21,955 nt of DNA from IMG/VR virus record IMGVR_UViG_3300035179_000071, positions 1-21,955 of that record; one strand, written 5' to 3'. This DNA comes from a virus. Both the position numbers and the translations under genes were made by a program. The notes under the pieces are model-generated. The model searched no databases. It saw only the letters and a program-made list of their open reading frames with translations, and had not been told where the DNA came from. Every line of letters starts with the position of its first letter. Position 1 is the first letter of the stretch. This document shows positions 12,210 to 21,955 of the stretch, one piece after another.

Positions 12210-12608
12210 TTACTTAAAACTCCTCTTAAGAATTAAATTACTAAATATTTCATCCGCCAAGAAGCCTATTGAGTAAGCAAATGCCTCGTCGCTGTCGTCT
12301 GTTAATTTAATACCACGACTTCGCAGAGTGTAACTAATAGCGTGAAAGCACTCGTGGACAATATCTCTTTTACAATTTGCCCAGATATAACAAACCTCTG
12401 TATTGCTATGATGAATAAATACATTGAACCCGCCGCCAGTTTCTTTATCTTTCGGCTCAATTTTACATTTAAGCTCTTTTAAGCATATATCCCTATACTC
12501 TTTATGGGTTTTTGCTGGGATAAAATAATAATTCTGACGATAGGTAAAATCATAAATATGCAGTATGTTGCCCACCCACTTAGAGATATATTTTTCTTTT
12601 TTCATCAT
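12210..12608 (-). CDS. Putative HExxH zinc metallopeptidase in the head-tail module
   Basis: The 132-residue protein has IVHECFHAISYTL with the HExxH zinc motif at His85-Glu86-His89, and a downstream Glu108 in DSDEAFAYSIGFL that could be the third ligand, as in gluzincins. The N-terminal half is beta-strand rich (YYFIPAKTHKEYR, GGFNVFIHHSN). It has no signal peptide. The ATGA overlap with the upstream head closure gene and the absence of a good ribosome site suggest translational coupling. Similar small HExxH proteins occur in phage structural modules, but the role is unknown. A head maturation protease is less likely because such proteases are usually encoded upstream of the capsid gene. Activity cannot be shown here; a structural zinc site is possible. 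Confidence 0.62.
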   Translation of the reverse strand: MMKKEKYISKWVGNILHIYDFTYRQNYYFIPAKTHKEYRDICLKELKCKIEPKDKETGGGFNVFIHHSNTEVCYIWANCKRDIVHECFHAISYTLRSRGIKLTDDSDEAFAYSIGFLADEIFSNLILKRSFK

Positions 12609-12895
12609 GCTAAATAAATTAATAGATATCGGTTGCTAAAATCCTTCTTCAACTCTATGACCAGAATCGAATACGTTACGCCGTTATAAACTACCTTGTC
12701 CTGATGCCCCAGAATCATCACCGGCAGCATTATATTTGCGCTTGAAACAACCTGATCACCGGCAATATTGCGAACGAGCTTGGTTGCAAATATGAATCTA
12801 CCTTTAACTGATACATTAGTTGGTATCGCACCACCCCAAGTGCCGTAGACTATCTTCTGGATAGTAATATCATCTGTAAAATAGGCGTTTATCAT
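12605..12895 (-). CDS. Head closure / head-tail joining-like protein
   Basis: The 96-residue protein is beta-strand rich (DDITIQKIVYGTWGG, VKGRFIFATKLVRN, NIMLPVMILGHQDKVVYNGVTYSILVIEL). This fits the small head closure or head-tail joining proteins that seal the portal before tail attachment. It overlaps the gpF-like gene by ATGA and the metallopeptidase gene by ATGA, and lies before the gp10-like gene, where these proteins are usual. There is no single diagnostic motif, so the call is from size, fold pattern and place. Confidence 0.62.
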   Translation of the reverse strand: MINAYFTDDITIQKIVYGTWGGAIPTNVSVKGRFIFATKLVRNIAGDQVVSSANIMLPVMILGHQDKVVYNGVTYSILVIELKKDFSNRYLLIYLA

Positions 12896-13833
12896 ATCGT
12901 AGCCATAAGTTCTTCAAATCTGCTGAATGAAGGAACTGCTATACTCGGTGCATTACTTAATTTAATAACTTCATCCATATATCCGCGCGATTCTAAATTC
13001 GTTTTTGTTATAGGCATTAAAACACAGAGGCAATTTGGGTGATAAGGAGGACTTTCTACTAACTGTGGAAAATTATCATCCGCTCCACTTATAGAGAATA
13101 CGCGTCCTGCATGCTGTTGACAGAATTCACAAGCACCAGAATGAACATCAATTTGTACGAGGTCTACACCATATCTAAGCGCCGTATTGATAGTTCCATG
13201 CGAGGTCGCCTCGCGCGTGCGTGTGCGTGCGAGAAGCTCTGCGTATTTCGAGGGTTGATAGTTTCGGCCATTGATTACCAAAAACCTTTCCTCGCCCAGT
13301 TGCGTCCTCAATCCCTGGAGAATCTTATCTGAAACTGTCCTGCGCGCCTCGCCCTGGATAAGTCCTTCGGCTATCATCCTGCTGATTTCTTTATCCTGCA
13401 ACAAAGTCTGCTGGGTTTGCGTGATTATTCGATTAAAAAACTTCTTCATTCCCTCATTAGCCATAATTAACTCTGTCGATACGCTCTGGACAAGGGCATT
13501 TATGGCCGTAGTATGTATCTGGGCATCATAAGCCACGAATCTCGTTATATTAAGGGCCCTGAGCCTCTCTGCTGCTAAATCTATGCCTTGTTCATAGGCG
13601 TATGGCAATGCATCCTTGGCCCATTTATAGACTCCATTGTTTAACTGAGCGACTATGATATCTACCTGCTTGAGCAATTGCTGCGCCCGGACCATCTGGA
13701 AATCGGTTAAATCTACTTGCTTTAATTGCGCAACCAGATTCTTCTGCGCAGCGCTATAAATGGCCCGCAGCTGGTCAATTTGCTGGCGCAAGTACATCTC
13801 TTTTGCTAATGGACTTAATTCTCTAAATGCCAT
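12892..13833 (-). CDS. Head morphogenesis protein, Mu gpF / SPP1 gp7 family
   Basis: The 313-residue protein has a helical N-terminal part (1-200, many Gln/Ala) and then the family motif: RTREATSHGTINTALRYGVD, DVHSGACEFCQQHAGRVFSI and SPPYHPNCLC. Cys235, Cys238, His265, Cys268 and Cys270 form the conserved putative metal-binding cluster of Mu gpF/SPP1 gp7 proteins, which are minor head components. AGAGGA lies upstream of the ATG at 13833. It overlaps the epimerase gene by 19 bases. In most phages this gene is upstream of the capsid gene next to portal; here it lies downstream of the capsid and after a connector gene, which is unusual. Confidence 0.85.
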   Translation of the reverse strand: MAFRELSPLAKEMYLRQQIDQLRAIYSAAQKNLVAQLKQVDLTDFQMVRAQQLLKQVDIIVAQLNNGVYKWAKDALPYAYEQGIDLAAERLRALNITRFVAYDAQIHTTAINALVQSVSTELIMANEGMKKFFNRIITQTQQTLLQDKEISRMIAEGLIQGEARRTVSDKILQGLRTQLGEERFLVINGRNYQPSKYAELLARTRTREATSHGTINTALRYGVDLVQIDVHSGACEFCQQHAGRVFSISGADDNFPQLVESPPYHPNCLCVLMPITKTNLESRGYMDEVIKLSNAPSIAVPSFSRFEELMATI

Positions 13834-14726
13834 TTAACCGTCCTCTTCAGTCCTTCCTCAAAACTTATTTTTGGTTTCCAATTTAATTCAACAATGGCTT
13901 TGGATATCCCTGCGTGTGATTTTCTTATATCCCCTTTTCTGGCAGGAGCATATTCGGGCCTAATTTCTTTGCCCATAATGATATTTAAAGCTCTATATAA
14001 TTGATTGATAGATTTCGGTTTTCCGTTGCCTATGTTATAAACTCCGTTACCGTGATACATTGCCTGTATATTGGCACTAACGACATCATCGATATAGGTA
14101 AAGTCTCTTTTCTGTTCTCCGTCCCCAAAGATAATAGGATTATCATTGTTCTTAATTTTAGTGATAAATTTAGGGATAACTGCGGAATATTCATCGTCTA
14201 ATGCCTGTCTTATTCCGAATACATTAAAATATCTTAAACAAACAATCGGCATTTCTTTTGAACTGAACATGGCGGCGATATGTTCGGTGCTTAATTTACT
14301 GTCGGCATAAGGGGATATCGGATTTGTGGCCATACTTTCCTTCACAGGAAATAATGATTGTTCTCCATAAACTGAACTTGAAGAAGCCAAAACTATTTTT
14401 TTAACTCCACTTTCTTTGGCAGCAAGAATTAGATTCAAAGTCCCGATGACATTAACCTCGTAAAATTCTTTCGGATTAAGGAAAGATTTCGGTACGGTTC
14501 GAAGTGCTGCTTGATGCAAAATACAATCTACCCCCTTAAGAAAAGACGCATCAATGCTTCGTATATCTTTAATATATAATTGAACTTTATCTTTAAATCC
14601 GGCGATATTGGCTTCCTTTCCGGAACTAAGATTATCCACGATAATAACTTCATGCCCGAGGTTGACAAGTTTCTCTGCTATATTTGACCCTATAAAACCG
14701 CATCCACCGGTAAGCAATATCTTCAT
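13815..14726 (-). CDS. NAD-dependent UDP-sugar 4-epimerase-like (extended SDR)
   Basis: The 303-residue protein is an extended short-chain dehydrogenase. It shows TGGCGFIGSN (residues 6-15), the NAD-binding G-x-x-G-x-x-G pattern, and D31 after the second strand. The catalytic set is S-S-S-S-V-Y-G (115-121) with Tyr140 and Lys144 in YADSK. The remaining blocks (RYFNVFG; GDGEQKRDFTYIDDV; YNIGNGK) match UDP-glucose / UDP-N-acetylglucosamine 4-epimerases. The expected reaction interconverts UDP-glucose and UDP-galactose, or the N-acetyl forms; which one cannot be told. It starts as ATGA after the 53-residue ORF and is separated from the other sugar genes by three small head-region genes. It probably supplies activated sugar to the glycosyltransferases. 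Confidence 0.88.
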   Translation of the reverse strand: MKILLTGGCGFIGSNIAEKLVNLGHEVIIVDNLSSGKEANIAGFKDKVQLYIKDIRSIDASFLKGVDCILHQAALRTVPKSFLNPKEFYEVNVIGTLNLILAAKESGVKKIVLASSSSVYGEQSLFPVKESMATNPISPYADSKLSTEHIAAMFSSKEMPIVCLRYFNVFGIRQALDDEYSAVIPKFITKIKNNDNPIIFGDGEQKRDFTYIDDVVSANIQAMYHGNGVYNIGNGKPKSINQLYRALNIIMGKEIRPEYAPARKGDIRKSHAGISKAIVELNWKPKISFEEGLKRTVKWHLEN

Positions 14727-14885: not shown

Positions 14886-15035
14886 TTACCATCTCCTCTT
14901 GAATAGAATATTGAACCCCAGAATCAATCTGTTCCAAATTCCTAATGATTTTGTCCAGTCCTTAAATTCCGAGGCGATCTTCTGTTCCAACTTCTTTACT
15001 TCGCGCCTTACTTTTTTGGCTGTCTTAGGGTTCAT
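14886..15035 (-). CDS. 49-residue basic ORF
   Basis: The ATG at 15035 overlaps the connector-like gene's stop (ATGA). The protein has 49 residues, MNPKTAKKVRREVKKLEQ..., very basic in its first half, with a hydrophobic-aromatic C-terminal helix (LGIWNRLILGFNILFKRRW). It looks like an amphipathic peptide rather than a folded enzyme. It is too short to assign a family. It is supported by its tight fit between two genes and the next gene's good ribosome site inside its end (AAGAGGAG). Confidence 0.58.
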   Translation of the reverse strand: MNPKTAKKVRREVKKLEQKIASEFKDWTKSLGIWNRLILGFNILFKRRW

Positions 15036-15457
15036 ACAATCTCATTTTCATCACGTTCAATTGCGACTATCTGTATGTCAGAATCTATTAAATATTCCTT
15101 AAGCATTTGTTTTACCAAGGGTGGTATAGGTATCCCATCGATTTCTTTGCCATAAGTCTCCTGGACAATGCCGGCCTGACTCACGCCCTGCGCCTGAAGG
15201 CCCATGCGCGCGTCCATATCAGTTCCATGCTGCAGAAGGAATAATGCCATTTCGCATTGGGCCTGCTCCATATTGACGCTAATCTCAGAAGGTATCTCGA
15301 ACAGTCCGCTGTTCACCAGCATATTGTAAGCGGTAACCAACGCGGCTTCTTTGGCGATTGCGGTATGCCAGAACATTGAAGCATTTAGTCTAGTGGCCAT
15401 ATAAAGTTCTGCGTCTGCCAGCGAAATCCAGGTATTAGTATTCAAGGTTAATGACAT
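15032..15457 (-). CDS. Head-tail connector-like protein (DnaT-like phage family)
   Basis: The 141-residue protein starts MSLTLNTNTWISLADAELYMATRL and goes on with KEAALVTAYNMLVNSG. This matches a well-known family of phage head-tail connector-like proteins (some annotated as 'DnaT-like'), with the N-T-x-T-x-x-S/T-L-A-x-A start and the later A-A-L-x-x-A block. The clear site AGGAGAG lies upstream of the ATG at 15457, and the start overlaps the methyltransferase gene by 23 bases. It would act at the portal-tail interface. The annotated name DnaT-like is by similarity only. Confidence 0.75.
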   Translation of the reverse strand: MSLTLNTNTWISLADAELYMATRLNASMFWHTAIAKEAALVTAYNMLVNSGLFEIPSEISVNMEQAQCEMALFLLQHGTDMDARMGLQAQGVSQAGIVQETYGKEIDGIPIPPLVKQMLKEYLIDSDIQIVAIERDENEIV

Positions 15458-15965
15458 TGTAGCTCTCCTTCTTTACGATTAGATACATATAAGTCGGGTC
15501 CTTAATTCCTTCCCGGTAAATTACTTCACTATCCAGAATAATACCGTATTTTTTCATAAGATTAGTAATTCCCATCACTGTAAACCTCACACGGTCGTTA
15601 TCGTAAACAGGAAAGCCGGTCAAGATCGTGCCTATTAAAACTATACTTCCTGAATTCAGGTAAAATAAATTGTCAAATAACCTAAAAGGATTTTCACACT
15701 GTTCAACAACTCCATTGCAAATTATGGCTCCAGGCATATCTATCAATATCATGGCATTAGCATCTTCTATGTTATGAACTAAATCCGGTTTCTTATCCGG
15801 GTCTTTATCAATAGTCAAGTATTTATATCCTTTAAATGTTTCAGCATAATCGTACTTCGCCGACTTACCAATATCATAGACGAGGCATCCTGGAGTCAAA
15901 TAAGCCTTAAACTTCTCCAGCCATTCATGATATTTCTGTCTTTCTAAGCTATCAGGTCTGTCCAT
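15435..15965 (-). CDS. Class I SAM-dependent methyltransferase-like protein
   Basis: The ATG at 15965 gives 176 residues; AGAGGA upstream supports this start over an earlier one at 16019. The pattern is class I methyltransferase: CLVYDIGKSAKYDY (28-40, motif I, SAM binding), YLTIDKDPDKKPDLVHNIED (acidic loop with Asp53), then AIICNGVVEQCENPFRLFDNLFYLNSGSIVL (motif IV and the strand that follows). The overlap of 14 bases with the radical SAM gene and 23 bases with the connector gene places it in the head operon. The methyl acceptor is unknown; a sugar or protein is plausible given its neighbours. Confidence 0.75.
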   Translation of the reverse strand: MDRPDSLERQKYHEWLEKFKAYLTPGCLVYDIGKSAKYDYAETFKGYKYLTIDKDPDKKPDLVHNIEDANAMILIDMPGAIICNGVVEQCENPFRLFDNLFYLNSGSIVLIGTILTGFPVYDNDRVRFTVMGITNLMKKYGIILDSEVIYREGIKDPTYMYLIVKKESYNVINLEY

Positions 15966-16764
15966 TAACGCATCCTCTGCATAAAGGCAATTCTGAATAA
16001 CGATTACACCAAAGCGCATCCGCTAAAGCATCTTTCTTCTTCATTACTGCTTCGCTAAATATCCCATCCTTTAAAGCATTCCCGTAAATCTGCCATTTAG
16101 TATCGTCTCCGCAACACCCAATTAAATCTCCGTCCCAGTGCATCATAGGGAATGCAGCAAAGTATTCACCACAATCAATCTGTTTTTTATTTGATAATCC
16201 ATCTTTGACCTGCCCATAAAAATCATGGAGATATTTTTGGCAATAAAGAAAATTATCGCTTCCTAACACCCGGATGAAATCCTCTATAGTCTCATCCTCT
16301 GTAGCTTCATAAATCATGTGCTGAATGTGGACGCTAAATTTATGTTTTGAACCTATGAGTATTTGAGCATTATGGATTACCTGCTCGAAATTTGACCCGG
16401 TATTGATTTTCTCCATTAGTTCCTTGACTGAAGAATTGAGGGAAATCGATATAAAATCCAAACACTTAAATTTGCACAATTCCTTAATTATATCTTCAGT
16501 TAGAAGCAATCCATTAGTAGAAAAGTCTACTTTTTTGAATCCTTTATTTTCAAGGTATGTCAAATTCTCAAAGAAATCCGGATTCAAGAACACATCCCCG
16601 AATCCGTGCAGGGCCACACGTTCATTCTTAAATTTCAATAACTGATCAATCACACACCTAAAATTGGCAGCCATCATATATCCTTTCGGCCTCTGGTTAA
16701 GCCGATTGGGACAGGATACGCACTTCAAACCGCAATAATTAGTCTGTTCTATAAGGACTAGCAT
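15952..16764 (-). CDS. Radical SAM / SPASM-like enzyme
   Basis: The 270-residue protein starts almost at the catalytic cluster: CGLKCVSC (Cys11, Cys15, Cys18), the C-x3-C-x2-C binding motif for the 4Fe-4S cluster, followed by ALHGFGDVFLNPDF, the G-G-E-P-like segment, and STNGLLLT. The C-terminal part has further cysteines at 198, 217, 218, 253, 262 and 265 in the order seen in SPASM domains (DCGEYFA ... MHWDGDLIGCC ... LCRGC). This suggests one or more auxiliary Fe-S clusters. The reaction is not known: SPASM proteins include peptide maturases, sugar-modifying enzymes and others. It lies between GT4 and a methyltransferase and overlaps both. Confidence 0.85.
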   Translation of the reverse strand: MLVLIEQTNYCGLKCVSCPNRLNQRPKGYMMAANFRCVIDQLLKFKNERVALHGFGDVFLNPDFFENLTYLENKGFKKVDFSTNGLLLTEDIIKELCKFKCLDFISISLNSSVKELMEKINTGSNFEQVIHNAQILIGSKHKFSVHIQHMIYEATEDETIEDFIRVLGSDNFLYCQKYLHDFYGQVKDGLSNKKQIDCGEYFAAFPMMHWDGDLIGCCGDDTKWQIYGNALKDGIFSEAVMKKKDALADALWCNRYSELPLCRGCVNGQT

Positions 16765-17596
16765 TTCTTATTGCCTCGTACATCCGCTTATACTCTGGCA
16801 TGATCTGTTCCCAGAGGAATTTCTGTTCAATCAATCGGCGCCCCAGATATTTCTGGAGTTTAAATTCTATATCCTCGACCGTAGGCTCGATGAATTCGAC
16901 CCATCCCTCGAATTCTTTCCACCCCCCCGCGCGAGTCATCAGTACCGGAATATTGCATGATAAGGCTTCAATGATAGTATTATTGAACCCTTCCGTAGTC
17001 GAAGGATGTATATAAACATCCAAATCCAGGTAAAAATCCTGCATCTTCTCATGCTCGGTCTCTCCGGTATTCAGCAGCGAGAGATATCCTGTAAGTTTCA
17101 ATTCTAAATCCAGATGCTTGCATACTGTTTCTAAAAGTTCGACATTTTTTGTCCCTATATATTTGGCTCCTGCGAATCCGATCACCGGCTTTTTATATTT
17201 AAAGAATTTGTCTTTATCAATGCCATTCTTTACGTAGGGTATCCTGTATTTTTCAGCGATCATAGGAGTTAAAGAATTTATATAAGGACATTCTTTGAAT
17301 ATCTTATCTAATTGCTCCGGATTGCCGAGATGCCCATATAGTAAAGACCTTTCATTGACTATGGTTATCGCTACTTTATTTTTATGCGACATGATATAGT
17401 CATAGAACATCGGCGTTAATCCAGCGGTAATCAAAAAATGCACGATGTCAAATTCTCTCTCATTAACCAAACAATCTTTGTTGCCGAATGCCGGTTGAAT
17501 ATCATATTCATACTCGGGGAGAAATTTCTTTAAAGCAAGGGCCTTATTATGTATCGCCCAATTATTCAGATTATCAGGAAGAAGTAGAATTTTCAT
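16739..17596 (-). CDS. Glycosyltransferase, GT4 family (GT-B fold)
   Basis: The 285-residue protein is a GT-B glycosyltransferase. The N-terminal Rossmann half is poorly conserved; the C-terminal half has PVIGFAGAKYIGTKNVELL and the diagnostic YIHPSTTEGFNNTIIEALSCNIPVLMTRAGG with an E-x7-E motif (Glu202 and Glu210). Such enzymes transfer a sugar from a nucleotide sugar with retention of configuration. The length is shorter than typical GT4 proteins, mainly in the N-terminal half. It has no membrane segment. It overlaps the deacetylase-like gene as ATGA at its start and the radical SAM gene by 26 bases at its end. Confidence 0.85.
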   Translation of the reverse strand: MKILLLPDNLNNWAIHNKALALKKFLPEYEYDIQPAFGNKDCLVNEREFDIVHFLITAGLTPMFYDYIMSHKNKVAITIVNERSLLYGHLGNPEQLDKIFKECPYINSLTPMIAEKYRIPYVKNGIDKDKFFKYKKPVIGFAGAKYIGTKNVELLETVCKHLDLELKLTGYLSLLNTGETEHEKMQDFYLDLDVYIHPSTTEGFNNTIIEALSCNIPVLMTRAGGWKEFEGWVEFIEPTVEDIEFKLQKYLGRRLIEQKFLWEQIMPEYKRMYEAIRNASPYRTD

Positions 17597-18078
17597 TGCC
17601 TCAACGCCTCTTCTAATGCCTTCATGCGATCTTGGTCATACATACACCAATAATGAAAATTATAGACAAGCCCACCGATCCTGTTGTCAACCTCAAGCCC
17701 GAACTCATCACATATCTTGATTAAGGTTGCGTTTACTCTATTCCAGGGAGGAAGGAATTTTTTGATATGGATATATTCTTTTTTATGGTCCTTTAACTCT
17801 TTCTCCCAGTAATTCAGGCACAGATTCAGATCCTTGCGTATATCCTCTTCGTTCATCACCGAATAGTCTTTATGGTCCCAACCATGCAGACAGATTTCCA
17901 GGTTAGGCGCGGTCATCATCCAGTACCAAATCTCTTTATTCTCCCAAATATCTTTCATCAGAACCGCTATGGTATGCGTCTTGTTATACTTAATGAAAAG
18001 CTCATGTACGTGCCTGAGCAAATCACAATTAGAGGTTACGGATATATCATCGTCCCTGAATATCTTAATATCCGACAT
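17593..18078 (-). CDS. NodB-like polysaccharide deacetylase-like protein
   Basis: The 161-residue protein resembles a small NodB/CE4-like hydrolase: IFRDDDIS (Asp9-Asp10-Asp11; catalytic motif 1), EICLHGWDHKDYS with His65 and His69 in an H-x3-H arrangement (motif 2), and KFLPPWNRV (the R-P-P-like motif 3). This protein class usually removes acetyl groups from amino sugars using a metal ion. The Asp, two His and PP segment are visible. It is shorter than typical CE4 domains and lacks a signal peptide or membrane anchor, so it would act in the cytoplasm, for example on nucleotide-linked or protein-linked sugars. It overlaps both neighbours, by 1 and 4 bases. Confidence 0.72.
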   Translation of the reverse strand: MSDIKIFRDDDISVTSNCDLLRHVHELFIKYNKTHTIAVLMKDIWENKEIWYWMMTAPNLEICLHGWDHKDYSVMNEEDIRKDLNLCLNYWEKELKDHKKEYIHIKKFLPPWNRVNATLIKICDEFGLEVDNRIGGLVYNFHYWCMYDQDRMKALEEALRQ

Positions 18079-18983
18079 TAAATCATCCTCCTAATCTGCT
18101 CGTCGATAATCCTCACCACTTCGCTGTAATCGGTTAGCTTCCGAATATTGCTCTTAAGCCCTTCCTCGTCCGGAGGAGTGCGCAAGATATTAAGCAGCGA
18201 CTGCTTATCGCTAAACTTAGGCATATATAAATCCGCATACTGGGTATGAATAAAAGTATCGGGAACGACTACACGAATGCCGCGCGCTATCATATCCAGA
18301 ATCCCATACCCATAACTTTCATAATGCGTAACGATGAACGTCTCAAGTGTGTCAGTTGCCTTCAAATATTCTAGAAAAGATAATTGCTTCAATTGCTTTA
18401 AATACGGACTAATTCTTGCCTGTCGTTCTCCTACCTCAACGCTCGGCTCATCCTGAACCTGCCGGTAAATCATGAACTCATCCTTCATTTCTTCCAGCCA
18501 TTCCTCAATCTTATAAGTCCAGTCCCAGTTATTATCCGCCTGCCAGTGGTCAACCATTATCGACTTAGTAATCTTAGGGATATTCTGGTACAACTTTTTA
18601 TATATCGGCAGAGGTATAAGCGTTATTCTTTCTCCAGAAGATTTAACCCCGAAACTAAAACTCCAATCCGCTCCTGAAATTAAAGGGAACTCGCAGATAG
18701 TAAACAGCTTCTTGCAGCTGGTAACTTGGCGGACTTTATCTTTTTTGAGTTCTTCCCAACTCTCGGTCAGACCCAAGAATAATACCGCGTCGGCTTTAGG
18801 CAGGTCATTCCAGATTATCTCGTTAGGATAATGAACCTGATGAAAGATTATATTGATACCTAATGCCTTAAAACTTTCATACAACGCAATGGTGATCTGA
18901 TGCCAGCATTCGGTAGAGTGAGCGATATCTAAATCACCTTTATCGGTTTGCCGGCCTAAGAGTAATAAAATGTAAGGTTTCAT
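18078..18983 (-). CDS. GT-B-like glycosyltransferase
   Basis: The 301-residue protein reads as a divergent GT-B glycosyltransferase. It opens with PYILLLLGR, a first strand, and has the acceptor-domain segments ADAVLFLGLTES and KLFTICEFPL. The C-terminal half has TFIVTHYESYGYGILDMIARGIRVVVPD (from about residue 215), like the E-x-x-G-x-x-x-x-E-A-x-A-x-G-x-P-V-V segment of GT4-type proteins, with Glu222. It lacks membrane segments. ATGA links it to the methyltransferase before it, and it shares one base with the deacetylase after it. The exact family is uncertain because the motif is weak. Confidence 0.65.
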   Translation of the reverse strand: MKPYILLLLGRQTDKGDLDIAHSTECWHQITIALYESFKALGINIIFHQVHYPNEIIWNDLPKADAVLFLGLTESWEELKKDKVRQVTSCKKLFTICEFPLISGADWSFSFGVKSSGERITLIPLPIYKKLYQNIPKITKSIMVDHWQADNNWDWTYKIEEWLEEMKDEFMIYRQVQDEPSVEVGERQARISPYLKQLKQLSFLEYLKATDTLETFIVTHYESYGYGILDMIARGIRVVVPDTFIHTQYADLYMPKFSDKQSLLNILRTPPDEEGLKSNIRKLTDYSEVVRIIDEQIRRMI

Positions 18984-19558
18984 TGTTTTATAAATGCTAT
19001 CTTGTCCTCAGACATTCCAAAAATATAAGGCTTCTCTTTATCCATAAATTCTTTTATTGCCTTGGCTGCGAATATCTTAGTATTTTTAGGAAAGTCATCG
19101 CAAAGTAATATGCCGCCTAATGCTAATTTCTTATTCCAGAGCCAATCTAAAGAATCTACTGTTGGTTGATGATGGTCTACATCCAAATACACAAAAGCAA
19201 TCTTCTCGTTTTCTGGAAATCTTTTGAACGTTTCAGGAACGAATCCGTCAATGATAAAATAATCTTTATTCAATTCTAAGCCTGAAAGAAGATTGATAAT
19301 GTGCTGGAATCCCCCTGTATCAAATTTACCTTTTGGATATTGCGGTTTATTCGGCCTTGGGTCAATATCAAATTCAGAAGGTTCACCCATACCCGCGAAC
19401 GAATCGAAAGCATAAGATTTCTTACCCTGTAATTTTGCTTCCCTGGCGATAAATTGGAATGTATCTCCTTTATAAACGCCTATTTCGACAAATACACCCG
19501 CAGTATGCAAGACTTTGTCAAAACAGAGTTCTAATAATTCGGGATTAGTATTAATCAT
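18980..19558 (-). CDS. TylF/macrocin O-methyltransferase-like protein
   Basis: The ATG at 19558 gives 192 residues. It shows FVEIGVYKGDTF (SAM motif), SYAFDSFAGMGEP, and FVYLDVDHHQPTVDSLDWLW with Asp126 and Asp128, followed by LGGILLCDDF with Asp154-Asp155. This is the arrangement of TylF-type sugar O-methyltransferases, in which the Asp residues bind a metal. In macrolide pathways they methylate sugar hydroxyls; here the acceptor is unknown but a sugar is most likely. It overlaps the preceding fusion gene by 8 bases, and its stop overlaps the next start (ATGA). A longer reading from TTG 19591 exists but is less likely. Confidence 0.82.
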   Translation of the reverse strand: MINTNPELLELCFDKVLHTAGVFVEIGVYKGDTFQFIAREAKLQGKKSYAFDSFAGMGEPSEFDIDPRPNKPQYPKGKFDTGGFQHIINLLSGLELNKDYFIIDGFVPETFKRFPENEKIAFVYLDVDHHQPTVDSLDWLWNKKLALGGILLCDDFPKNTKIFAAKAIKEFMDKEKPYIFGMSEDKIAFIKQ

Positions 19559-20882
19559 GTCTCGTCTTTCTGCTGAACACATAATGCTCAATCATTGGCT
19601 CGCCATATTTTGCCATTGTGTCAAATATCTGGGTATAGTTTGGAGGCAACTCCAACAGTTTACCATCCCAATTCTTTATGGTCTCCTGGAGTACCCATTG
19701 CGACAAGTGCATGTTGGGATGCTTGGCGTTGTCCGCTATCCATCTATCAACTAACTCCAGAGCCTTAGGCGTATAATTGAAGAACATCGTCCCGCCCAAA
19801 AGTTCTTTCTTATATGGATAGCCCCCGCCATATACCTCGTCGGTATTTAAATAATGCACAGCAAAATCAGCGTCGAGATTATCAAACAATTCTGGATAGT
19901 GAATAATAAGGGCGTCGCTGTCTAACCACACGATAGGCCTCTTGTGCTTCAATAACATCTCCTTGACGAAATCTGCACGACTGTAGATAGTCTTGAGCCA
20001 GCTGCCTTTCTTCTGGATATGAACGATATCTGTCTCTAAACCAAACTTAATAGCTGAGCGTTCCATCGTCTTGGCGGCTTCTGCGTATTCATCTGTGTAG
20101 AATGAAACGATAACAGGCCGCTTTAATTTCGGGATATCTTTAAACTTACCGAACTCAAAATATTTAAGATTGCTCTTAGGATTAAGATTAATAACCTTGG
20201 TATGATTTCCTAACTGGAGTGATGCCGCGTGGAAATCATCCTGGAAGACTTTATATAATTCTTCACTCTGACCCATGTTCTCTGGGTAACCGGAATGGAA
20301 ATTAGCGAGTTTGCCATCTATTCCGTATAAGTCAAAACCCAAAAGGTAAATAGGATTCGCTCCCAGGCAGGCCGCCATCATAATGGCATTAACCCCAGAA
20401 TTACCGTAGATAGGAATGCCCCGATAATATTCCTGGAATGTAAAATCAGTAGGGGCTAATGGATTGATTGTGTAGATGTCTTCTGGGAATGGAAATGCCT
20501 GAACATTAAGCCAGACTTTATAACCCTTATAAGAACGGAATTTCTCTGTCGCCTCGGGGCCTAAATCTTTGCTGCTCTCGTACCATCCCCATACGCGCGC
20601 GTCCGTGCATACGTTCATCGCAGAGAATGGGCACGATTCAAAACCGCGATTAACCGTGATGACCAGTTCGCCCTTTAGTTTACTGAAATCAAAACCTTTA
20701 AGTGAGGGCCCACCACCGATAATAAAGCACCGCTTGCCTTTCCATATATCTTTCGGAAAGATGTCTTGGATGCGTTTATTATTCCTCAGATTACCCTGGC
20801 TATCTGTAATCTCGGCGAATGCCTCAACGGTTCTCTGTTCTGCGCTCTTGACGTCGCACATCCGCACTACTTTGCTAACCAT
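19551..20882 (-). CDS. DUF115/MptE-like and GT-A glycosyltransferase fusion
   Basis: The start at ATG 20882 has AGGAG with a 7-base spacer; the reading from 20933 has none. It gives 443 residues. Residues about 48-190 resemble a DUF115/MptE-like domain: CFIIGGGPSLKGFDFSKLKG, VITVNRGFES, VCTDARVWGWYES and NSGVNAIMMAACLGANPIYLLGFDL. From about 255 the protein changes to a GT-A-like domain: RPVIVSFYTDEYAEAAKTMERS, IVWLDSDALI with the DxD motif (Asp321-Ser-Asp323), ELLGGTMFFNY and SQWVLQETI. So one polypeptide seems to carry two enzyme-like domains. Both families include proteins that handle nucleotide sugars or related substrates; the overall reaction is not known. It is the first gene after the capsid and its hairpin. 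Confidence 0.8.
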   Translation of the reverse strand: MVSKVVRMCDVKSAEQRTVEAFAEITDSQGNLRNNKRIQDIFPKDIWKGKRCFIIGGGPSLKGFDFSKLKGELVITVNRGFESCPFSAMNVCTDARVWGWYESSKDLGPEATEKFRSYKGYKVWLNVQAFPFPEDIYTINPLAPTDFTFQEYYRGIPIYGNSGVNAIMMAACLGANPIYLLGFDLYGIDGKLANFHSGYPENMGQSEELYKVFQDDFHAASLQLGNHTKVINLNPKSNLKYFEFGKFKDIPKLKRPVIVSFYTDEYAEAAKTMERSAIKFGLETDIVHIQKKGSWLKTIYSRADFVKEMLLKHKRPIVWLDSDALIIHYPELFDNLDADFAVHYLNTDEVYGGGYPYKKELLGGTMFFNYTPKALELVDRWIADNAKHPNMHLSQWVLQETIKNWDGKLLELPPNYTQIFDTMAKYGEPMIEHYVFSRKTRHD

Positions 20883-20907
20883 AAAGCATCTCCTCTTAAG
20901 AGTAGGC

Positions 20908-20927
20908 CGGGAGTTTTTACACTCCCG
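20908..20927 (-). other. Hairpin between capsid gene and the sugar block
   Basis: The 65-base gap between the capsid stop (20948) and the next start (20882) holds an exact 7-bp inverted repeat, CGGGAGT at 20908-20914 and ACTCCCG at 20921-20927, with a 6-base loop. Two further pairs form after one mismatch. No T-run follows on the minus strand, so it is not a standard intrinsic terminator; it may be a processing, stability or attenuation element. An adjacent palindrome CTCTTAAGAG lies at 20893-20902, just before the AGGAG site. Confidence 0.65.
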
Positions 20928-20947
20928 ACCCACAGATTACTTACTGG

Positions 20948-21955
20948 TTAAGAAAGTACGCAGCGTGCGATTTGGTCTGTATCTCCAACTGCGCCACCAT
21001 AGCGCATCCAGCCGACCATCGTATCCGCGTAGGATTCGATATTGAACTGGTCGAAGAGGGTCAGATCCATTCTGTTGCCACCTTTACACTTTGCCTTCGG
21101 GAAGCAAACATAGTAGTAAGAATTGCTGGCAAGCATAAGGGTGTAAATCGGCCGGACGTTGAAATTCAAACGCTCTCCGGAGCCAACCACCGGCTGCTGA
21201 ATCATCTTCAAGGCTCTTTCGATTCTTGATTTGATAGCAACTGGAGCAACGATCACGAATTGGCTATTCGCGTTAGCACCCACGCCTTTATCCTTAAGAT
21301 CAGTAAGGATGGCCAGAATAGCGGCGTTGATGGTGTTGACATCGCGAATCGAATCGTAATTCTCATTCGATGAAGCAACGGATGCCGGTGTTACTGCGGC
21401 CCACGTACTCTGGATATTGCCGGAAGCAGCGCCTGCGGCCTCAAGCAATGCGTAAAACGCAGCGGCCTTCGATGAATATGCTTTGTTGCGGAACGCTATG
21501 GCATTGTCTTCGAGCGTCCAATACTGACGGTCATCAATCAACTTCCTGTCCCAATTCAAACCGCCACCGTACATATCAAACGTAACTTCGGTCAATGCGC
21601 CGGACATCTTGAATATCTTCGCCTTCTCTCCAGTGAGAACTTTAGCGAATGTCAAACCGCTTTCTACATCGAGAATCTTGAAGCCTGCTTCGTTAGTGCC
21701 GGTAAAATCCCTGATGTCGAAAATTTGCTCATACCCTAAATCATAGTCCGGTACGGCGTGGAACTTTTCGAGTATCTGCAGGATCTCTGCGGGAAAATCA
21801 CCTTTTGTAGCAAACGCTTGAAACGCCTTGCGGATCGGGCTATCAATCGCTGCAGGCTGTCTCATGAAGTGCTGTAAAGCACCCACAACCTTTGCCCTTA
21901 GAGCGGGATCAGTAAAACTGACCTTCGTCCAGTCGGCTATAATTCTGCCTTTCAT
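20948..21955 (-). CDS. Major capsid protein (HK97-fold, Mu gpT-like)
   Basis: The frame is open from 21955 to a TAA at 20948-20950. The ATG at 21953-21955 is at the window edge, so the true start may lie beyond it; no ribosome site is visible. The 335 residues have the size and layout of HK97-type capsid proteins of the Mu gpT kind: a charged N-terminal section, then DYDLGYEQIFDIRDFTGTNEAGF, MYGGGLNWDRKLIDDRQYWTLEDN, a long Ala-rich helix (residues about 155-185) and a C-terminal beta region (DLTLFDQFNIESYADTMVGWMRYGG). It precedes the head-tail connector and tail genes in the operon. Similarity to gpT is read from pattern only. Confidence 0.82.
   Translation of the reverse strand: MKGRIIADWTKVSFTDPALRAKVVGALQHFMRQPAAIDSPIRKAFQAFATKGDFPAEILQILEKFHAVPDYDLGYEQIFDIRDFTGTNEAGFKILDVESGLTFAKVLTGEKAKIFKMSGALTEVTFDMYGGGLNWDRKLIDDRQYWTLEDNAIAFRNKAYSSKAAAFYALLEAAGAASGNIQSTWAAVTPASVASSNENYDSIRDVNTINAAILAILTDLKDKGVGANANSQFVIVAPVAIKSRIERALKMIQQPVVGSGERLNFNVRPIYTLMLASNSYYYVCFPKAKCKGGNRMDLTLFDQFNIESYADTMVGWMRYGGAVGDTDQIARCVLS

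Follow-up and report, generated by a model that had tools for sequence, protein, structure and literature searches.

Seven adjoining genes between the capsid gene and a head-tail connector gene of a tailed phage probably form a virion-glycosylation module, in which a Maf-like system would place sugars on a virion protein in the cytoplasm. The genes lie in a stretch of viral DNA of 21,955 b (IMG/VR virus record IMGVR_UViG_3300035179_000071, positions 1-21,955), which was analysed as a whole and is called the window here. All seven open reading frames (ORFs), found on the - strand at 15435-20933, encode predicted sugar- and methyl-modifying proteins, and they are bounded by the major capsid protein (MCP) gene and the gene of an Ad1-type connector. 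The gene next to the MCP, termed the anchor gene, encodes a DUF115/Maf/Cst-II-like domain fused to a GT-A-type glycosyltransferase (GT), and the remaining genes are termed cargo. An earlier sequence-only reading had treated the seven genes as one coordinated insertion; the relatives show instead a near-universal DUF115 gene of the head module accompanied by exchangeable cargo, in which the radical SAM, TylF, NodB and epimerase genes are optional. More tentatively, and with a confidence just short of even, it may be proposed that a broad group of tailed phages keeps a Maf/GT42-related transferase near-constant in the head module, dedicated to glycosylation of the capsid or another virion protein, together with an exchangeable cassette that would let near-identical phages change particle serotype gene by gene; such a module would be the phage equivalent of the islands for flagellin and S-layer glycosylation.

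Linkage of the anchor gene to the capsid gene

With the MCP alone as query, 87 relatives were collected from viral contigs and contigs of binned genomes. Removal of MCPs more than 97% identical left 75, of which 67 were testable, their contigs extending 700 b or more past the MCP; the full set comprises 94 non-redundant MCP relatives. In 65 of the 67 non-redundant testable relatives, at MCP identities down to about 39%, the MCP is immediately followed by a DUF115 domain, which starts 108-880 b (median 246) past the end of the MCP. Because the same arrangement recurs in relatives, that of the window cassette is beyond chance. The two exceptions are L026 (5755-9167), an MCP relative without DUF115 that is followed by a methyltransferase and a frame judged radical SAM-like by eye, and L054, which has 857 b remaining behind the MCP and there a frame judged methyltransferase-like by eye.

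Divergence between DUF115 domains follows that between the MCPs (Mantel r 0.58 for 87 non-redundant loci of the full set, with 0 of 2000 permutations as high). The corresponding comparisons of the MCP give r 0.54 for Ad1 and r 0.73 for MuF, so that the DUF115 gene acts like an inherited component of the head module. The MCP-Ad1 interval has a median of 4.8 kb and a range of 1.5-9.7 kb. Additionally, in three bacterial metagenome-assembled genomes, the DUF115 profile matches were confined to contigs carrying the phage MCP, two of these matches being counted without a contig-number cross-check against the earlier loci. For the phage group as a whole, contigs of metagenome-assembled genomes loosely indicate Omnitrophota and Aminicenantes.

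Domains and fold of the anchor protein

The DUF115/Maf/Cst-II-like domain spans approximately residues 55-275 of the anchor protein and carries a GGGPSL motif. PHROG 4603, named 'alpha-2,3-sialyltransferase', matches the protein at 2.8e-20. The GxGPSL motif and a downstream IYLxGxD motif are conserved, and G73-G75, S77, N95, D111, I195, Y196, G199 and D201 are invariant in 26 of 26 sequences. Searched against known structures, the DUF115 profile reached seven Cst-II (GT42) chains with E values of 7e-4 to 1e-3 over profile positions 16-156, a modest score from a collinear alignment, while the Maf structure 5mu5 was reached at 0.63, below significance.

The GT-A half carries a DXD motif, D338-S-D340. 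An AlphaFold2 (AF2) model of the whole anchor protein has a predicted local distance difference test (pLDDT) score of 85.5, and the fold match concerns this GT-A half. The top Protein Data Bank (PDB) match is 2p6w, the major capsid glycosyltransferase of PBCV-1 (E 1.9e-8; 15% identity; template modelling score 0.68 by target length). Other GT-A enzymes rank next, and GT-A matches fill the Foldseek list of the full model. In locus L005, DUF115, GT-A and methyltransferase domains occur within one ORF of 847 amino acids (aa).

Cargo genes and their exchange

Family profiles were scanned over 73 cargo proteins, six of them from the window. The most frequent families were GT2 (10), Methyltransf_24 (8), radical SAM (6) and Methyltransf_23 (6); PIG-L deacetylase, cupin and Nucleotid_trans were found in 3 each, SPASM, TylF and collagen in 2 each, and epimerase in 1. 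A given biochemical role recurs through non-homologous genes, as the deacetylase is of the NodB type in the window and of the PIG-L type in L005.

For 36 long records (20-52 kb), the positions of such matches were compared with the expectation from length. All 37 GT2 matches lie at most 7 kb behind the MCP (7.7 expected), as do 17 of the 20 Methyltransf_24 matches (4.6 expected) and six of the seven radical SAM matches over the cut-off, one of them via the circular wrap. The formal binomial P values, 7e-26 for GT2 and 7e-9 for Methyltransf_24, overstate independence because matches to the same gene and closely related records are counted separately. The sequence-only reading had named residence in unrelated host polysaccharide loci as the contrary outcome of a genome survey; the survey gave linkage to the capsid gene, both for DUF115 and for GT2.

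Close relatives differ in individual genes. L037 and the window share about 99% identity on either side of a short replaced stretch, which holds an extra methyltransferase between the radical SAM gene and the last methyltransferase. Genome G001 (L001 and L176), considered complete because of a 127-b terminal overlap, measures 46,496 b including the overlap and has an MCP 96% identical to that of the window. It lacks TylF in L001, and the epimerase is absent from the stretch of G001 that was searched. Its radical SAM protein is 57% identical to that of the window, while the adjoining GT4 protein reaches 87% and the following Ad1 connector 89%; the GT-B-like protein (window 18078-18983) is likewise kept at 89% in L001. 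These differences in L037 and G001 indicate that cargo genes are gained, lost and replaced one at a time.

Other proteins are also found in the interval and its neighbourhood. A collagen-repeat protein, a possible fibre or glycan acceptor, lies just before Ad1 at L030:16886-18226 (PF01391 5e-37) and also in L027 and L031. L015:12753-16114 holds, between MCP and Ad1, a protein resembling a YadA head and a second one of 685 aa whose family is unknown. At L007:7727-8419, an HNH/NUMOD3 homing endonuclease takes the slot of the window's epimerase.

Gene layout of the window

On the - strand, the order is MCP, the seven non-structural genes, the Ad1-type connector, a small ORF, the nucleotide-sugar epimerase and a MuF-like minor head protein, beyond which lie more connectors and head proteins, the tail tube, tape measure, tail tip and fibre. 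The order of seven genes between MCP and connector given by the sequence-only reading held, as all ORFs exist on this strand and both flanking proteins are identified by Pfam or PHROG. The HK97-type MCP (20948-21955, 335 aa, - strand, its ORF running to the window end) matches PF25209 (2.4e-6) and phrog_24071 (1.2e-22); the capsid family PF05065 gave no match in the window. The anchor ORF (19551-20933, -) begins in its longest form at GTG 20933, and the block end of 20882 given previously corresponds to an internal ATG of this first ORF, which may be the true start.

The cargo follows, all on the - strand. A TylF-like O-methyltransferase (18980-19591; PF13578, Methyltransf_24, 2.5e-10; PF05711, TylF, 2.8e-9) is optional. 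A putative GT-B-like glycosyltransferase (18078-18983) is named from its position in the cassette and an EX7D-like motif. The NodB/DUF2334-like deacetylase (17593-18078) matches PF01522 (Polysacc_deac_1, 4.5e-6) and PF10096 (0.0012) and has the D-D and HXXXH metal motifs. The GT4-type glycosyltransferase (16739-17596) matches PF13692 (1.6e-10) and phrog_2170 (2.4e-14) and carries EX7E. The radical SAM enzyme (15952-16764; PF04055 2.5e-14) has CX3CX2C and appears SPASM-like by eye from its C-terminal cysteines; a search for this protein in cultured phages gave no match. A class I methyltransferase-like protein, MT2 (15435-16019), is so called from the appearance of its sequence, and its start is probably 15965, because the upstream extension is missing from its 99% relative in L037. 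The Ad1-type head-tail connector (15032-15457, -; phrog_477 7.9e-8) closes the cassette. Behind it stand the NAD-dependent nucleotide-sugar epimerase/dehydratase (13815-14726, -; PF01370 1.7e-57; phrog_540 7.8e-87; YXXXK and GXXGXXG motifs), which had correctly been placed nearby, and the flanking MuF-like protein (12892-13833, -; phrog_4611 1.1e-44). Among the domain names proposed earlier, radical SAM, GT4, NodB-like and TylF are borne out by profile and GT-A by structure, while no family matches the GT-B-like protein at 18078-18983 or MT2.

Overlaps of 1-26 b, also claimed previously, are found at most junctions; those of MT2 and of TylF, for which alternative start codons are possible, depend on the start codon. 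The highest 19-residue hydropathy among the cassette proteins is 1.55, so that no membrane segment is visible in them, and the Pfam scan together with hydropathy revealed no flippase, polymerase or polyprenyl-phosphate transferase in the window cassette, in agreement with the sequence-only reading on membrane segments, flippase and polymerase. An origin as a genomic island was considered and set aside, as the cassette G+C fraction of 0.37-0.44 shows no clear difference from the structural genes. Elsewhere in the window, a CAP/SCP-family protein (123-461; PF00188, 1.2e-4), unusual for a phage, lies close to the tail end of the operon, and a phrog_1365 protein with a short HECFH stretch (12210-12608), by eye a possible metallopeptidase, stands between two head-tail genes.

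DUF115 outside this capsid lineage

A search from the DUF115 side, in which the best 80 of 247 loci were considered, returned loci that mostly have the same MCP upstream. Among the DUF115 loci without that MCP in these 80, 14 have an Ad1 homologue just upstream, and in a sample of such Ad1-linked loci the nearby capsid gene is phrog_247, phrog_1328 or phrog_617. In the cultured Caulobacter phages CcrColossus (gp126-gp131, L175) and CcrBL9 (gp174-gp179, L171), a DUF115-like gene comes directly after a tail protein and is succeeded by GT and methyltransferase genes and then by an endolysin or lysozyme gene. The DUF115 homologue of a Stenotrophomonas phage adjoins ribonucleotide reductase genes, and virion linkage of DUF115 is therefore not universal.

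Proposed function and alternative explanations

Sugar transfer, deacetylation and methylation are the activities suggested by the families of the cassette proteins. During late expression, the DUF115/Maf-like transferase fixed behind the capsid gene, or its fused GT-A domain, would act in the cytoplasm and link either a first sugar or an already assembled glycan to a virion protein. The epimerase would supply the sugar nucleotide, the radical SAM enzyme may introduce a carbon-level change to the sugar, the NodB deacetylase would free an amino group, the GT4 and GT-B-like transferases would extend the glycan and the two methyltransferases would cap it. Position and analogy make the capsid protein the leading candidate acceptor, with other head, neck or tail proteins as alternatives. 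The glycan could hide the particle surface from adsorption, proteases or predators, or alter adsorption. The order of steps, the donor sugar and this benefit are conjectural. Given the exchange of cargo genes among related phages, near-identical phages should carry different glycans.

Several observations weigh against this interpretation. PF01973 scores 24.6 bits against the window anchor, under the Pfam gathering cut-off of 34.6, and across 26 members it reaches at best 3.8e-6 (27.2 bits), with E<=1e-3 in 16 of the 26; the DUF115 name is supported by PHROG 4603 and in part by Pfam. The tyrosines that contact the donor phosphate (cytidine monophosphate, CMP) in Cst-II, Y156/Y162, are not conserved at the aligned columns of a weak profile alignment, and no CMP-nonulosonate pathway was seen in the cassette; a sialic-acid-like donor therefore seems unlikely. 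The GT-B-like and MT2 proteins have no significant Pfam or PHROG match, and their names are provisional. In the cultured, distant Microcystis phage MACPNOA1 (27% MCP identity), no DUF115 match was found, and the gene is therefore inessential to this capsid type. In loci outside the main MCP lineage, the DUF115 gene has the Ad1 connector or a tail protein before it, and adjacency thus fails to single out the MCP. As proteins of the collagen-like or YadA-like kind also occur in some intervals, the acceptor is the least secure part of the interpretation, and both it and the glycan are putative. Modification of a virion protein, as the sequence-only reading had suggested, is nevertheless the best-supported explanation, through the linkage to the capsid.

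The question of the acceptor leads to an overlapping explanation, somewhat unlikely, in which a separate fibre or decoration protein of the collagen-like or YadA-like kind is glycosylated and the MCP neighbourhood is merely a genomic slot. The proteins of L030 and L015 inside the MCP-Ad1 interval and the Caulobacter cassette behind a tail protein are in its favour, but the window and most examined loci have no fibre gene in the interval, and the collagen family accounts for two of the 73 scanned cargo proteins. Prophage glycosyltransferases are known to alter O-antigen, and GT2, GT4, epimerase and methyltransferase genes are common in surface polysaccharide loci, which speaks for a module altering host surface polysaccharide or lipid-linked sugars, for superinfection exclusion or seroconversion. 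It is nonetheless quite improbable: the window cassette shows no flippase, polymerase, polyprenyl-phosphate transferase or membrane segment, its genes belong to the late head module and do not stand with early or lysogenic genes, divergence of the anchor gene follows that of the MCP, and every GT2 match in the 36 long records lies behind the MCP.

That the genes are hitch-hiking accessory genes (morons) in a permissive slot, with no joint virion function, would accord with the variable cargo and with the homing endonuclease in the same neighbourhood of L007. The recurrence of the same biochemical classes (GT, methyltransferase, radical SAM, deacetylase, epimerase), the near-universal and vertically kept DUF115 gene and the occurrence of DUF115-GT-methyltransferase fusions make this very unlikely. 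Transfer of sugars or methyl groups to phage DNA bases has a well-known precedent in phage base glycosylation, and phrog_2675, 'DNA methyltransferase', weakly matches the TylF protein (2.8e-6). TylF-type enzymes methylate small sugars, however, and a cassette that combines radical SAM, a NodB deacetylase and a TylF sugar O-methyltransferase suits sugar building; from this content and the place of the cassette in the head genes, modification of DNA is very unlikely.

Comparison with known glycosylation systems

Phage-encoded virion glycosylation is already known in mycobacteriophages. Freeman et al. 2023, as cited in PMC12363180 and PMC11256854, is the source for Che8 gp110, Corndog gp38 and Myrna, phages in which sugars are borne by capsid and tail tube proteins. 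The F1 phage Maravista has its GT genes close to the 3' end of the genome (PMC11256854), so that linkage of GT genes to virion genes, as in the relatives of the window, supports such a system without strictly defining it. The window group shares with these phages the encoded glycosyltransferases and would share a soluble cytoplasmic route; it differs in that the DUF115-type transferase abuts the MCP and in the addition of radical SAM, deacetylase, epimerase and methyltransferase cargo.

The central domain of Maf (Maf_flag10, pfam01973) is reported to resemble Cst-II, Maf O-glycosylates flagellin, and flagellin glycosylation precedes export according to work cited there (PMC11339370). The GGGPSL-type motif and the collinear profile match to Cst-II are common ground, and Maf acts on Ser/Thr of a self-assembling protein. 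In contrast, the window anchor scores under the Pfam cut-off, is fused to GT-A and is accompanied by no visible nonulosonate pathway; its gene adjoins a capsid gene instead of a flagellin gene, and its acceptor is putative.

A064R of chlorovirus PBCV-1 is a GT-GT-methyltransferase protein that completes the capsid glycan (PMC9614988). Its GT-A fold is the best PDB match of the window anchor, albeit at about 15% identity within a common fold, the L005 fusion similarly unites GT and methyltransferase in one virus protein, and methyl capping of a capsid glycan is proposed for the window group as well. PBCV-1 is, however, a eukaryotic virus with N-glycans, and A064R has no DUF115 domain. The PBCV-1 capsid fold is unrelated. 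CcrColossus and CcrBL9 likewise have DUF115-like, GT and methyltransferase genes among virion genes; these are jumbo phages in which the row stands behind a tail protein and before the endolysin, with its genes annotated as hypothetical or sialyltransferase.

Capsid glycosylation by virus-encoded enzymes is established in mycobacteriophages and chloroviruses, so the description of the cassette as a previously undescribed virion-modification system was too strong. A literature search found no report of MptE-like/DUF115 genes beside phage capsids, an absence that is no proof. As far as the literature found shows, the new element is that a diverse phage group retains a DUF115/Maf-like anchor behind the capsid gene, together with an exchangeable cassette.

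Biological meaning

If this interpretation is true, protein glycosylation would extend beyond a few mycobacteriophages and regularly characterize a large phage group, mostly uncultivated, that has a recognizable marker gene. Variable sugar coats would then be predicted on phage particles where no vertebrate antibodies exist, which raises the question of what they protect against. CcrColossus and CcrBL9 would offer a testable cultured model, and new enzymes for sugar modification (radical SAM, deacetylase, methyltransferase), probably sharing one acceptor, could be drawn from the cassettes.

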